DNA of 53,232 bases from a virus. The DNA is taken from the IMG/VR virus record IMGVR_UViG_3300044615_001001, positions 1 through 53,232 of that record. One strand, given 5' to 3'. Under the pieces are notes generated by a model. The model was not told where the DNA came from. It saw nothing but the letters and a program-made list of their open reading frames with translations, and did no database searches. Position 1 is the first letter of the stretch, and each line of letters opens with the position of its first letter. A program made the position numbers and the translations under genes. Of the stretch, positions 49,364 through 53,231 are shown piece by piece.

Positions 49364-49378
49364 GTGCACCTCAAGCGA

Positions 49379-49451
49379 TTGCGGAGACGGGAATTGCACC
49401 CGTGCGTGGCCGGCTTATGAGGCCGGTGCGTTGCTACTTCGCCACTCCGCG
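49379..49451 (-). tRNA. tRNA-Met(CAT), initiator-like
   Basis: Folds into a cloverleaf on the minus strand. The acceptor CGCGGAG pairs with CTCCGC, leaving C1 opposite A72, the mismatch that marks bacterial initiator tRNAs. The anticodon arm is CCGGC-CTCATAA-GCCGG, with two of the three G-C pairs typical of initiators. The T-arm is ACGGG-TGCAATT-CCCGT. The D-loop is short and lacks GG, which is odd. CCA is not encoded. It lies between MuF and protease genes. Elongator Met or Ile(CAT) cannot be fully excluded. Confidence 0.8.
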
Positions 49452-49502
49452 ATAGGCCGCCGAGATTACGGATGCGCGAGCGCAGAGCCGTCGGCGGGCT
49501 TG

Positions 49503-51176
49503 TCAGTCAGCGAGCGGGCCGGGAGCGGACTCCCAGCCAGCATCCGGCGTCACGCCAGCGATGCGGCCCTCGGTGAGCATGTAGCCGCGCGCCTCGAACT
49601 GCCTCGCGCTGATCGTGGTCAGCGAGCAACGACAGTTGCTCGTGATGATTCCGTTCGCCCCTATCCAGCTGAAAGGCGACTGGAGGTCGAACACATGTCC
49701 AGAGAACGAATGGCGCTTGACGCTGACTACCTTGTCCGTGCCTACGAGGCCGGAGCCTCTGAGAAGAAGCTCGCTGACGAACTTGGCGTCTCGCGCAGTG
49801 CCATCAGGCGCAGACTGGTCGCGCGCAACGTGAAGCCGCGAGGCCGCTCCGAAGCGGAGCTGCTGAAGTGGTCCGCCATCAAGCGAGACAGAGCCCTCGT
49901 CGAGCGCCAGTGCGGCAGAGCGTGGAATGCCGCGAGGGGTCGAGTCCACACGCTTGAGGAGCGCGTCGCCAGAGCTGCCAGCGGCGGACGCCTCATCGGC
50001 AAGCACGAGGACACAATCGCCGGTCTGCTCGACGCCGCTGGCTGTGCCGTGGAGCGCCAGTTTGCCTGGGGCCCCTACAACATCGATCTGGCCGCGCATG
50101 AAGCGCGCGTCGCCATCGAAGTCGTTGGGACTCCACCCGTCCACGCTGGCCGAGATAGAGTCCGCGAACGCACCGAATACCTGCTCAATGGCGGCTGGTG
50201 CGTGCTCTTTGTCTACGTTGGTCCACTGTGGGGTCGCCGCACCGTTGAGATCGACGGTGCGTTCGTAACAAACGAGATCGTCTCCCTCGTGGAGAGAGCC
50301 CGCCGCAACGAACCCGTTCACGGTTGCTATCGGGTGATTCGGGGTGACGGGGAGCCGACGGCCATGCTCCGTAAGTACCTCAACAATCTCCCCGTCGTAC
50401 CAAGCGCGGTAGGCGCCGTCGAAGGTGCCCTCAACGACAACGCCTGACGGGAAGCATCGGAAGCCGAGCGGGGGCGCGTAGTACGCGGCCTCGTCGGTGC
50501 CCTGCCGGAACACGCGGCCGTGAAGCGCGCGGTGCATCGGCCGGACGGCCTCGTCGCCAGCGGTCACGTAGCGAAGGAAGGGGCGCAGCGCGGCGACGTC
50601 GGGATCGTTGACGGCCTGCCATCGGCCAGCGCCGTACGACGTCGCGACGTTCGTTCGCACGACGGTCTCGAGGTAGTGCGGACTCGCGGGCGCGATGCCC
50701 ATCGCTCGCACCTCGTCACGCTCCGCAGCGCGGATCGCCTCGTACACCTCGTCGGTGGTGAGGTCTTGCTCGAGAAGCCGCGCGATGCTTGTGCGTGCCA
50801 CTTCGCGCAGACGCTCTGTCGCGAGACGCCGCGCCACGAAGCCACCTTCACGGTAGCGGTCACGCAGCGCGTCGAACTCCTCTTCGGAGATCAGCCGCTT
50901 CGCGCGGAAGAACGCAACCGCGTCGTCGAACGGCATCGCCAAGAACGGCGACTCACGGCGCGAGGTGACGGCGCGTGCTGCGCTGTCGCTGTCCTCTGCG
51001 AGCTCGACCTCACGCACCATCAACTGGCCGCCGAGCGCCGCTTGAAACGACGTGCGGTAGAGCAGGCCCGCGAGCCTGTCGTCGGTCTGGAGCTGGTCGG
51101 CCCAGCGGGCCACCACCTCGTCGATGTCACTCGGACCACGCAGCGAGCGCGCGTGCGCCGCGAGCAGGTCGAGCAT
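49503..51176 (-). CDS. MuF-like head morphogenesis protein interrupted by an intein
   Basis: From the ATG at 51176 the frame gives 557 residues: a 240-residue N-extein, a 274-residue intein and a 43-residue C-extein. The N-extein has the MuF signature PFDDAVAFFRAKRLISEEEF and TVVRTNVATSYGAGRWQAVN. Spliced, the exteins give PPLGFR-CRCSLTTISARQF, the conserved C-terminal CxC motif of MuF proteins. MuF is a minor head protein involved in head assembly and injection. No ribosome-binding site precedes this ATG, and residues before it resemble a portal C-terminus, so a frameshift from the portal gene may be the true origin. Confidence 0.75.
   Translation of the reverse strand: MLDLLAAHARSLRGPSDIDEVVARWADQLQTDDRLAGLLYRTSFQAALGGQLMVREVELAEDSDSAARAVTSRRESPFLAMPFDDAVAFFRAKRLISEEEFDALRDRYREGGFVARRLATERLREVARTSIARLLEQDLTTDEVYEAIRAAERDEVRAMGIAPASPHYLETVVRTNVATSYGAGRWQAVNDPDVAALRPFLRYVTAGDEAVRPMHRALHGRVFRQGTDEAAYYAPPLGFRCFPSGVVVEGTFDGAYRAWYDGEIVEVLTEHGRRLPVTPNHPIATVNGFVAAGSLHEGDDLVCYERTVDLNGAATPQWTNVDKEHAPAAIEQVFGAFADSISASVDGWSPNDFDGDARFMRGQIDVVGAPGKLALHGTASGVEQTGDCVLVLADEASAAGSSGDALLKRVDSTPRGIPRSAALALDEGSVSLDGGPLQQLRFGAASRLHVARDQSAPDGTARDAKFVSELLLRGSGLVGTDKVVSVKRHSFSGHVFDLQSPFSWIGANGIITSNCRCSLTTISARQFEARGYMLTEGRIAGVTPDAGWESAPGPLAD
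49635..50456 (-). mobile_element. Intein in MuF (274 residues)
   Basis: The N-terminal splicing domain starts CFPSGVVVEGTFDGAYRAWY, with Cys 1, and has block B LPVTPNHPIATVNGFVAAGS followed by LHEGDDLVCYE. The C-terminal domain is VVSVKRHSFSGHVFDLQSPF then SWIGANGIITSN, followed by Cys +1. The penultimate residue is Ser, not the usual His, which may slow Asn cyclisation. The middle (about 150 residues) contains no LAGLIDADG or HNH motif; NDFDGDARF and QQLRFGAASRLHVARDQ look conserved-like. The nuclease appears to be encoded on the opposite strand. Confidence 0.9.
49695..50447 (+). CDS. Putative homing endonuclease antisense to the intein
   Basis: A 250-residue frame on the strand opposite the intein, wholly inside it. 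The ATG follows GGAGG by eight bases. Residues 8-50 form a helix-turn-helix (LVRAYEAGASEKKLADELGV, SRSAIRRRLVARNVKPRG). Residues 100-175 fit a PD-(D/E)XK/Vsr-like nuclease: GKHEDTIAGLLDAAGCAVER (Glu 105), WGPYNIDLAAHEARVAIEVV (Asp 131, Glu 142), GTPPVHAG, then RTEYLLNGGWCVLFVYV. This is the pattern of Vsr-like or EDxHD-type homing nucleases. Codons lie exactly opposite intein codons, second base to second base. Confidence 0.8.
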   Translation: MSRERMALDADYLVRAYEAGASEKKLADELGVSRSAIRRRLVARNVKPRGRSEAELLKWSAIKRDRALVERQCGRAWNAARGRVHTLEERVARAASGGRLIGKHEDTIAGLLDAAGCAVERQFAWGPYNIDLAAHEARVAIEVVGTPPVHAGRDRVRERTEYLLNGGWCVLFVYVGPLWGRRTVEIDGAFVTNEIVSLVERARRNEPVHGCYRVIRGDGEPTAMLRKYLNNLPVVPSAVGAVEGALNDNA

Positions 51177-51217: not shown

Positions 51218-52651
51218 CTAGTGCGCCCGGTCGTCCGACGACTGCCTGAGCAGTCGCGCGAGCGGATGCGTCGAGGTCTGCGACGTCGCCCCACTCGGCG
51301 TCATCGCGGCCCTCGGAAAAGGGACCTCCGCAGACGCACCCCCCGGCGCGCTTGTGGAGGCTGGGAGGGAAAGAGGCGACCCGCTGTACGCGGGCGGAAG
51401 CTGTGGCGCGGCGAACGCGTCGCCGCCGTCGATCGCGTCGTAGCCGTTCGACGTGCGGAGCTCGTTCTTCGTGCAGAGACCGGCCTGGTACTCCGCGACG
51501 CTCCACGGGCGCTGCGCCTGCACTGCCGTCTCGATGACTGGCACGACGGCGCCGGGGCGATTGAAACGCACGAGCGGCGCGAGCCACTGATCGCAGATCG
51601 TCTCGTCGAGCTCGGTGAGGTCGGCCGCGAGGATGTCGCCGCGCACCTGCGCTTGCGCCTGGCTGCCGTACGTCTGCGCGTCCTTGACCTCGATGCTGAG
51701 GTTGCCGCCGAGTAGCGAGACCGCGTACTCCGTGTTGCAGTAGTCCGCGAACAGCTTGTGCAGTTCGGGGTAGAGCGAGACGGGGATCTCGTTGATCTCG
51801 ACGCCCGTGCGGAACGCCGCGCGCCACGTCGAGGACAACTGCCCAAGCTGGTCAACCACCTCGTCAAGCATCGTCGTGGACGTGCTCGGGTCGTTGACCA
51901 CGCCGTACAGCTGCGGCTGGCCGTACCGCTCGATCATCTCGAGCCACCAGCGCAGCCCGAACCGCTTCGCGAGCGCGAGCGCGAGGAGCGGACGCAGCGC
52001 GCCGCGCTTCTGGAGACGTAGATGCACGCCGCCCGTTGGGCTGTGCACGATGAACTTGTGCGGCCACGAGGACAGCGGCTTGCCGTGGCACTCCGCGCCA
52101 GGCTCGTACACGCACAACTCGCCGTACTCATCGACGGAGAGGCGCGTGGGATCGATGGGGCGCGGACGCGAGACGACCCACCCGCGCGAATCGAGCTGCC
52201 AGTCGTGCTCGAGGACGCCGACGCCGCGGAGGATGCCCTGCGCAAGCTCGGCGCGACGACGCGCGAAGCCAGGCGTCTCGTAGAGGATCGTCGAGACCGA
52301 CTGCGCCGTTGCGAGCGCGTCGCGGTCCTGCTCGTAGCCGACCGGTGGGCGCACTGCCCAGCGCCTCGACGTGATCGCGTGAATGCGCGCAGCGGACACG
52401 CCACGAAGGCGCGAGTCACGCACGAGCGCGCCCTCGTAGATGGCCTGTAGCGGCGAGATCGTGCCGACGTCAGCGGAGCGCAGTGCGCTCACGAGCTGCT
52501 GGCCAGCGTTGACCTCGTACTCCATCGGATCGCTGACCTGCCGCGACGTGCGAGGCACGCCGTACACGCGACCGACGGGAGCGCCGCCGCTGAGCGTCAG
52601 CGGGGCGGCTGCCGCGCGCTTGCTCCACGGGAGCCAGTCGGTCCACGCCAT
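51218..52651 (-). CDS. Portal protein (DUF935, Mu gp29-like)
   Basis: A 477-residue head portal subunit through which DNA enters and leaves. It fits the Mu gp29/DUF935 family: RDSRLRGVSAARIHAITSRR, GVGVLEHDWQLDSRGWVVSR, RPIDPTRLSVDEYGELCVYE, KRFGLRWWLEMIERYGQPQL and TYGSQAQAQVRGDILAADLT. The last 39 residues (after Gly 438) do not resemble the family, whereas the -1 frame from that point (CVCGGPFSEGRDDAEWGDVA and on) does. GGAGG precedes the ATG by four bases. Confidence 0.88.
   Translation of the reverse strand: MAWTDWLPWSKRAAAAPLTLSGGAPVGRVYGVPRTSRQVSDPMEYEVNAGQQLVSALRSADVGTISPLQAIYEGALVRDSRLRGVSAARIHAITSRRWAVRPPVGYEQDRDALATAQSVSTILYETPGFARRRAELAQGILRGVGVLEHDWQLDSRGWVVSRPRPIDPTRLSVDEYGELCVYEPGAECHGKPLSSWPHKFIVHSPTGGVHLRLQKRGALRPLLALALAKRFGLRWWLEMIERYGQPQLYGVVNDPSTSTTMLDEVVDQLGQLSSTWRAAFRTGVEINEIPVSLYPELHKLFADYCNTEYAVSLLGGNLSIEVKDAQTYGSQAQAQVRGDILAADLTELDETICDQWLAPLVRFNRPGAVVPVIETAVQAQRPWSVAEYQAGLCTKNELRTSNGYDAIDGGDAFAAPQLPPAYSGSPLSLPASTSAPGGASAEVPFPRAAMTPSGATSQTSTHPLARLLRQSSDDRAH
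51338..51344 (-). promoter_or_regulatory. Candidate -1 frameshift heptamer GGGGGGT in the portal gene
   Basis: In the portal frame the codons read CCG-GGG-GGT, so the heptamer is G-GGG-GGT, which permits canonical tandem slippage to GGG-GGG. A -1 slip leads directly into CVCGG..., the frame of the following MuF gene. The same homopolymer could instead be the site of an indel or assembly error. Confidence 0.5.
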
Positions 52652-52953: not shown

Positions 52954-53219
52954 GGGCACTCCGGGTCAGGCCCGTCGCACGAGCTCTCGTTCATCGGCAC
53001 GCGGTAGAACGTCACGCCATCGTCGGACCGCCACCAATGGTCGGGCTCCCCACGATGCGACGCCACGCGTGCGCGCTCCAGCCGATCTACCTCGGCGAGC
53101 AACTCGCCGACCGCGTCGTCTTTCCAGTCGATCGTAGGCTCGGCGCGCTCCTCCGCTTGCTCCTCCGCGTGCAGCTTGCGGAACAGCTCGAGGCGCTCTC
53201 TCGTCATCGGCGTCGTCAT
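52950..53219 (-). CDS. Hypothetical protein spanning the contig junction
   Basis: An 89-residue protein (MTTPMTRERLELFRKLHAEE, then DAVGELLAEVDRLERARVAS). The N-terminal half is a charged helix; the C-terminal part has HWWRSDDGVTFYRVP. Its 5' end is repeated at 1-114. The ATG overlaps the TGA of the gene complete at 111-1082 (ATGA). Confidence 0.65.
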   Translation of the reverse strand: MTTPMTRERLELFRKLHAEEQAEERAEPTIDWKDDAVGELLAEVDRLERARVASHRGEPDHWWRSDDGVTFYRVPMNESSCDGPDPECP

Positions 53220-53231
53220 GCGTTCTCCTTC
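53106..53231. repeat. Right copy of 126-bp terminal direct repeat
   Basis: Identical to bases 1-126. Removing one copy gives a circular map of about 53.1 kb in which the minus-strand operon is continuous across the junction. Confidence 0.95.

Follow-up and report, generated by a model that had tools for sequence, protein, structure and literature searches.

The window analysed here is the whole of IMG/VR virus record IMGVR_UViG_3300044615_001001, 53,232 nucleotides with a G+C content of 69.5%. On its minus strand lies a portal gene of the Mu type, the product of which matches Portal_Mu (PF06074, DUF935) over residues 70-379 at 1.7e-43 (149.7 bits against a Pfam cut-off of 23.9). An earlier reading made from the letters alone, referred to below as the sequence-only reading, had proposed that the zero frame continues past Gly438 into a 39-residue tail and that the -1 frame entered at the same point reads CVCGGPFSEG... 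on into MuF. Both statements agree with what we find: the tail ends at the stop at 51218, and the -1 frame is open from the heptamer to 49503, through a match to Phage_Mu_F (PF04233; 1.1e-10, 42.6 bits against a cut-off of 29.6). The intein that had been placed inside the MuF part is also there, with a Pfam match to an intein splicing domain that falls below the cutoff and with an empty site in the near relative described below. The features of the region are collected in Table 1.

Table 1. Features of the portal/MuF region (positions are those of the window)
Feature	Position	Strand	Remarks
Zero-frame portal ORF	51218..52651	-	477 aa, Portal_Mu/DUF935; unshifted product
In-phase heptamer G GGG GGT, proposed slip site	51338..51344	-	CxCG motif just after, in -1 frame
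Second in-phase heptamer C CCT TTT, alternative slip site	51317..51323	-	enters the same -1 frame
Predicted stem-loop	51272..51315	-	22 nt after GGGGGGT, 1 nt after CCCTTTT
-1 frame helical domain, about 110 residues	51003..51338	-	corresponds to the C-terminal end of ordinary Mu-type portals
First ATG in -1 frame after the heptamer	51174..51176	-	weak Shine-Dalgarno match
ATG in -1 frame at ordinary portal/MuF boundary	51018..51020	-	moderate Shine-Dalgarno match; possible separate MuF start
-1 frame MuF (PF04233), first extein part	50457..51002	-	Pfam
Intein, 274 aa	49635..50456	-	inserted at GFR/C...SN/CRC of MuF; absent from L002
-1 frame MuF, last extein part and stop	49503..49634	-	

The helical domain with which Mu-type portals end is found here in the -1 frame and not in the zero frame. 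When set against eight phage portals, the -1 stretch aligns with the helical domain at the C-terminus of the Mx4, Riverbug, YPCBV-1, D3112 and Mu portals, which bears out the earlier suggestion that it resembles a normal DUF935 C-terminus. The -1 residues (…LLYRTSFQAALGGQLMV) stand where ordinary portals have their last helical segment (Mx4 …LTERAYLLAQLAGRLAV), and likeness to ordinary MuF proteins starts at residue 123-138 of the -1 product. Two AlphaFold runs gave weak models (mean pLDDT 64.3 and 54.1); the -1 domain is modelled as helical at low confidence, and neither model carries weight in the argument. The portals of Mu, D3112, YPCBV-1, Bise and Riverbug themselves include the helical segment, and MuF has a gene of its own that overlaps the portal gene slightly. 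The sequence-only reading had held that related phages with a complete portal end and an independent MuF start would tell against slippage. Such phages do exist (Mu, D3112 and YPCBV-1); however, they are distant from the window and have no slip site at the joint, so the objection fails here. The same reading was mistaken in stating that no start codon lies ahead of MuF, since the -1 frame contains, ahead of the MuF domain, ATG 51176, GTG 51116, GTG 51113, TTG 51023, ATG 51020 and GTG 51017. The Shine-Dalgarno score of ATG 51020 is -5.0 (-6.1 in L002), compared with -8.7 for the portal start.

The heptamer GGGGGGT is present in the phase that had been claimed for it, over the zero-frame codons GGG GGT. 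A second in-phase heptamer, C CCT TTT, had been overlooked and lies 21 nt beyond the first. Heptamers are more frequent at the junction than expected by chance: the portal ORF has two of the form XXXYYYZ in phase, both at the junction and ahead of the zero-frame stop, and none was found in 2,100 codon pairs taken from the portal ahead of the junction and from six further genes of the window, while a GGGGGG at the two glycine codons arose in 3.1% of 2,000 synonymous shuffles. The predicted stem-loop downstream has a folding z of -2.65 in the window and -3.3 in L002 (control mean -0.26, 5th percentile -2.29, 50 windows), and it is kept in L002 with three differences, all in unpaired loop positions. 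Neither of its two distances falls within the usual heptamer-to-hairpin spacer of 5-9 nt (PMC5009743), and no clear Shine-Dalgarno stimulator was found upstream of the window slip site.

C CCT TTT may be the slip site in place of G GGG GGT. On G GGG GGT the A-site tRNA would have to re-pair from GGU to GGG, an untidy match, and both tRNA re-pairing and the position of the hairpin speak for CCCTTTT. The reading of the peptide speaks for GGGGGGT. The -1 residues encoded between the two heptamers, CVCGGPF, resemble a CPxC...F motif that stands at the same place in relatives where MuF has its own ATG or GTG (L047 MIGCPRCGVAFAAG, L084, L086, L157 and L158) or is fused (L171), and it is this match of CVCG to the CPxC of L047, L084, L157, L171 and others that makes GGGGGGT the preferred site on this count.

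A near relative from another metagenome, IMGVR_UViG_3300023179_008132 (L002), is 89-93% identical to the window in the aligned pieces and has no intein. It keeps CCCTTTT, both frames, the hairpin and a zero-frame tail open to almost equal length, and its GGGGGGT also has six Gs, not the five or seven that the sequence-only reading had associated with an assembly error. The substitutions between the two follow the zero frame ahead of the site and the -1 frame beyond it: 44 of 75 are at zero-frame third positions in the 600 nt of portal upstream, and 46 of 60 are at -1 third positions in 600 nt of MuF. Between the heptamer and the first -1 ATG, 9 of 13 fall at -1 third positions (binomial 0.009), as do five of the six in the 45 nt beyond the zero-frame stop. 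In the overlap both frames are about equally conserved at the amino acid level, with four changes in the zero-frame tail. The substitution pattern of this one diverged pair, on which conservation in the window lineage rests, shows the -1 frame to be under coding constraint upstream of any ATG. A further record, L003, is 100% identical to the window over the compared stretch and supplies no independent evidence. Scans of viral_contigs with P0001, P0004 and the capsid protein returned only L002 and the contig of L003, L004 and L055, and a P0001 scan of genome_contigs returned no relative of the window lineage; P0001 searches found two distant portals in 297 genomes from one phylum and three in 257 genomes from one class, at 25-27% identity. 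A stretch of about 58 nt around the heptamer is identical between the window and L002, and it was dropped as evidence since an equally long identical stretch occurs elsewhere in the portal.

The same joint occurs, with a different slippery run, in several named phages. In the Rhizobium phage RR1-B the portal ends ...GTA AAA AAA AAC and MuF follows in the -1 frame with the helical domain ahead of it; the arrangement is the same in RcapMu (A8), RcWaterboi (A9) and EBPR siphovirus 4 (A9). The joints of RcapMu, RcWaterboi and RR1-B resemble that of the window in the early portal stop, the -1 frame of MuF, the helical C-terminus ahead of it and the slippery run, but they differ in that the run is A8-A9, the zero-frame stop comes 2-5 codons past the run (39 in the window) and there is no intein. 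The depositors of the RcapMu record noted a short portal for which a 'possible +1 frameshift would allow readthrough', together with an early MuF start without a good RBS, whereas the frames as we read them stand in a -1 relation.

We used the portals of such phages as seeds for a survey of IMG/VR, 84,980 species genomes and named phages, which yielded 174 loci, many of them duplicates. MuF is in the -1 frame in 125, in one ORF with the portal in 30, in the +1 frame in nine and in the same frame but separate in three; the remaining seven were set aside for want of a match to the portal or to MuF. Loci were not selected for the A-run, and since the seeds were alphaproteobacterial these counts are silent on overall frequency. 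Among the 117 clusters formed at 95% nucleotide identity, 65 have MuF in the -1 frame and an A8-A10 run where the portal ends. The others comprise 22 with a -1 relation and no A-run, which take in L002 with its GGGGGGT as well as ordinary ATGA-type overlaps, 18 in-frame fusions, eight with a +1 relation and no run, one with a +1 relation and a run, and three in the same frame. Rhizobium, Agrobacterium, Rhodobacter, Paracoccus, Sulfitobacter, Rhodovulum and Ochrobactrum are among the hosts of the named loci.

The run is of nearly constant length, being A9 in 61 of the 65 unique slip-type loci, A8 in two and A10 in two, and it is nearly confined to the joint: one other run of eight or more As was found in 260,365 nt of portal and MuF coding sequence (108 loci), and AAA accounts for 31% of the other lysine codons (1,247/4,066). 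Its phase relative to the zero frame varies among the relatives, and every A9 contains an in-phase A AAA AAN. By comparison, an in-phase XXXYYYZ occurs within the final 150 nt of the portal gene in five of 27 loci of the ordinary layout. No Shine-Dalgarno stimulator was found upstream of the A-run in the relatives, and folding downstream of it has a mean z of -1.08 (n=82) versus -0.35 in controls (n=164). Two loci depart from the pattern, L065 (near 5880) keeping the A9 and the -1 relation with one extra stop in the helical domain, and L116 (near 5860) having an A8 with MuF in the +1 frame. A fourth layout was seen in L047, L084, L086, L157 and L158, where the portal body is followed by the helical domain and MuF as a separate gene; that gene starts at an ATG or GTG of its own, which overlaps the portal stop, and its product begins with a CPxC-like motif.

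The in-frame fusions provide a mirror image of the slip layout. An A9 or A10 run stands at the joint in 20 of 21 unique in-frame portal-MuF fusions, the exception being L171, a fusion without a run. In 18 of these 20, some of which are close relatives, a -1 stop follows the run after no more than five codons (background for these ORFs, 0.232); in the other two, L081 and L089, the -1 stop comes after 9 and 10 codons and a +1 stop after two. Slipping on the leftover A9 would thus give such fusions a short portal, and the two layouts would make the same two products: in one, plain translation would give the portal and a -1 slip the fusion, and in the other plain translation would give the fusion and a -1 slip the portal. 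On a portal tree of 117 rows there are at least nine changes between layouts, with sister pairs of unlike layout (L022/L139, L069/L081 and L066/L135), and the run stays. The tree is a quick one (LG+G4 with SH-aLRT only) that leaves out unique loci with a portal core of fewer than 330 residues and has long branches outside the alphaproteobacterial clade. The persistence of the run through these apparent flips is hard to explain unless both products matter. The window lineage, that is the window and L002, lies far from the A-run clade (branch 4.18), and its slip site would for that reason be either an independent or a very old case.

We infer that a programmed -1 slip at the portal/MuF joint probably yields a portal-MuF fusion. 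This was the central proposal of the sequence-only reading, and it is supported by the site kept in L002, by the coding constraint on the -1 frame and by the slippery run at the joint of the relatives. The slip would sit where the portal body gives way to the helical domain at its C-terminus. Translation without a slip would stop 39 codons on and produce a portal without the helical domain, while a slip on G GGG GGT, or on C CCT TTT, would produce one chain of portal, helical domain and MuF, from which the intein would then be spliced out. Since the portal acts as a dodecameric ring, slippage at a level of some percent would produce mixed rings in which a few MuF copies are attached to portal subunits. 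The tied MuF would presumably be placed at the vertex inside the head, much as Gag-Pol places Pol in retroviruses.

Other origins for this arrangement have to be considered. MuF could be translated separately from ATG 51020 or ATG 51176, with the portal ending in a non-homologous tail of 39 residues. The moderate Shine-Dalgarno match of ATG 51020, its position at the MuF start of ordinary Mu-like phages and the split layout of the five relatives with a start of their own all lend this some weight, yet we think it unlikely because coding conservation in the -1 frame extends upstream of both ATGs and to both sides of the zero-frame stop, which a start at 51020 leaves unexplained. Moreover, the start codon of the split relatives precedes the entire helical domain including the CPxC, which is not so in the window. 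Separate initiation could, in any case, coexist with slippage. Nor does it seem any likelier that RNA polymerase rather than the ribosome slips on the homopolymer and makes mRNAs with one extra base. The A9 of 61 of the 65 slip-type relatives, its variable phase and the lack of an upstream Shine-Dalgarno stimulator fit such a process well, a nine-base run being a known length for efficient transcriptional slippage (PMC5009743). However, the window run is only G6, short of a homopolymer of about eight or more, and in the relatives both the stronger downstream folding and the in-phase A AAA AAN inside every A9 fit ribosomal slippage. A ribosomal slip is favoured for the window, and the two kinds of slippage are equally possible for the A-run relatives.

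If the true run had seven Gs, the gene would be a single in-frame fusion, of the kind that does exist among the relatives. We rejected such an assembly or sequencing error as very improbable, because six Gs and the two-frame layout are also found in L002, which comes from a different metagenome and has diverged by about 10%. Even a single in-frame fusion should yield two products, since the fusions among the relatives keep a slippery run. Given that a single base separates the window layout from an in-frame fusion, the gene could also be a fusion decaying after a genuine frameshift mutation, with no slip at all. This is the least probable of the explanations considered, as both lineages have open frames on either side of the joint and purifying substitution patterns, and the head gene region of the window is otherwise orderly.

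A programmed slip at this joint would have parallels in other genes. Lambda gpG/gpGT and the -1 frameshifted coat proteins of A2 and T3 are cases in which a morphogenesis gene yields a minority fusion at a set ratio (PMC5009743); the slip is -1 as proposed for the window, but the genes are others. The dnaX gene makes its long tau and short gamma products from one slippery site, with the roles of the frames reversed in some bacteria and with RNA polymerase slippage on a 9-base run in Thermus (PMC5009743), although dnaX is a cellular gene for another protein with no capsid role. The fused product itself is encoded as a single gene in Microbacterium cluster EA/EB phages (PMC7302621), as in L017, L066 and other fusions of our survey, where one ORF suffices and no frame change is involved. 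In SPP1 the portal (gp6) binds the MuF protein gp7 and takes a few copies of it into the procapsid (PMC6316719). There the two are separate genes and the contact is non-covalent, whereas the link proposed for the window is covalent; by analogy, slippage at some percent per ring would achieve through a covalent bond what SPP1 achieves through binding.

Recoding in phage morphogenesis genes is thus already known, and at the portal-MuF joint we found no published case: no paper on portal-MuF frameshifting was found in the open-access literature, to which the search extended. The PRFect paper names MuF-like genes among its unverified predictions, owing to VIP2-MuF fusions, and the word 'portal' is absent from its text (PMC10885494), as it is from the first 300,000 characters of the 2016 frameshifting review (PMC5009743). 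On balance we lean towards regarding portal-MuF slippage as a conserved and previously undescribed stoichiometry device of Mu-type heads, through which each ring would get both subunits and which the window lineage would have reached or kept with other slippery letters. Binding is the usual explanation for how a few MuF copies come to lie beside a portal ring of twelvefold symmetry. A slip site kept through layout flips would say that plain and MuF-tailed portals are both needed in some ratio and, if this is true, phages would have a Gag-Pol-like way of loading a few MuF copies through the portal. The composition of the ring would become testable in the laboratory phages RcapMu, RcWaterboi and RR1-B, and the annotation of many Mu-like phages and prophages with a seemingly truncated portal and a MuF seemingly without a start would have to be corrected.

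Several other elements lie in or near this region. The empty MuF intein site of L002, around 2630-2640, reads LGYRCRCGL where the window has LGFR-intein-CRCSL. Within the intein (50456-49635, minus strand) there is an antisense plus-strand ORF of 251 aa at 49692-50447, with an HTH match and weak MTES_1575/DUF559 endonuclease matches, which looks like a homing endonuclease gene nested antisense in the intein. By tblastn this ORF has matches in 45 phage records, 37 of them covering at least 80%, and in Gordonia phage Angelicage (gp15, MuF-like) and Pseudomonas phage BR161a the annotated gene lies on the strand opposite to the match. A tRNA-Met (CAT) at 49377-49452 on the minus strand follows directly downstream of MuF within the head gene region; none was called in L002, and an Rfam search found only a tRNA. 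Finally, L003 spans the ends of the window with a 126-nt overlap (1-126 and 53106-53231), from which the record looks circular or terminally redundant.
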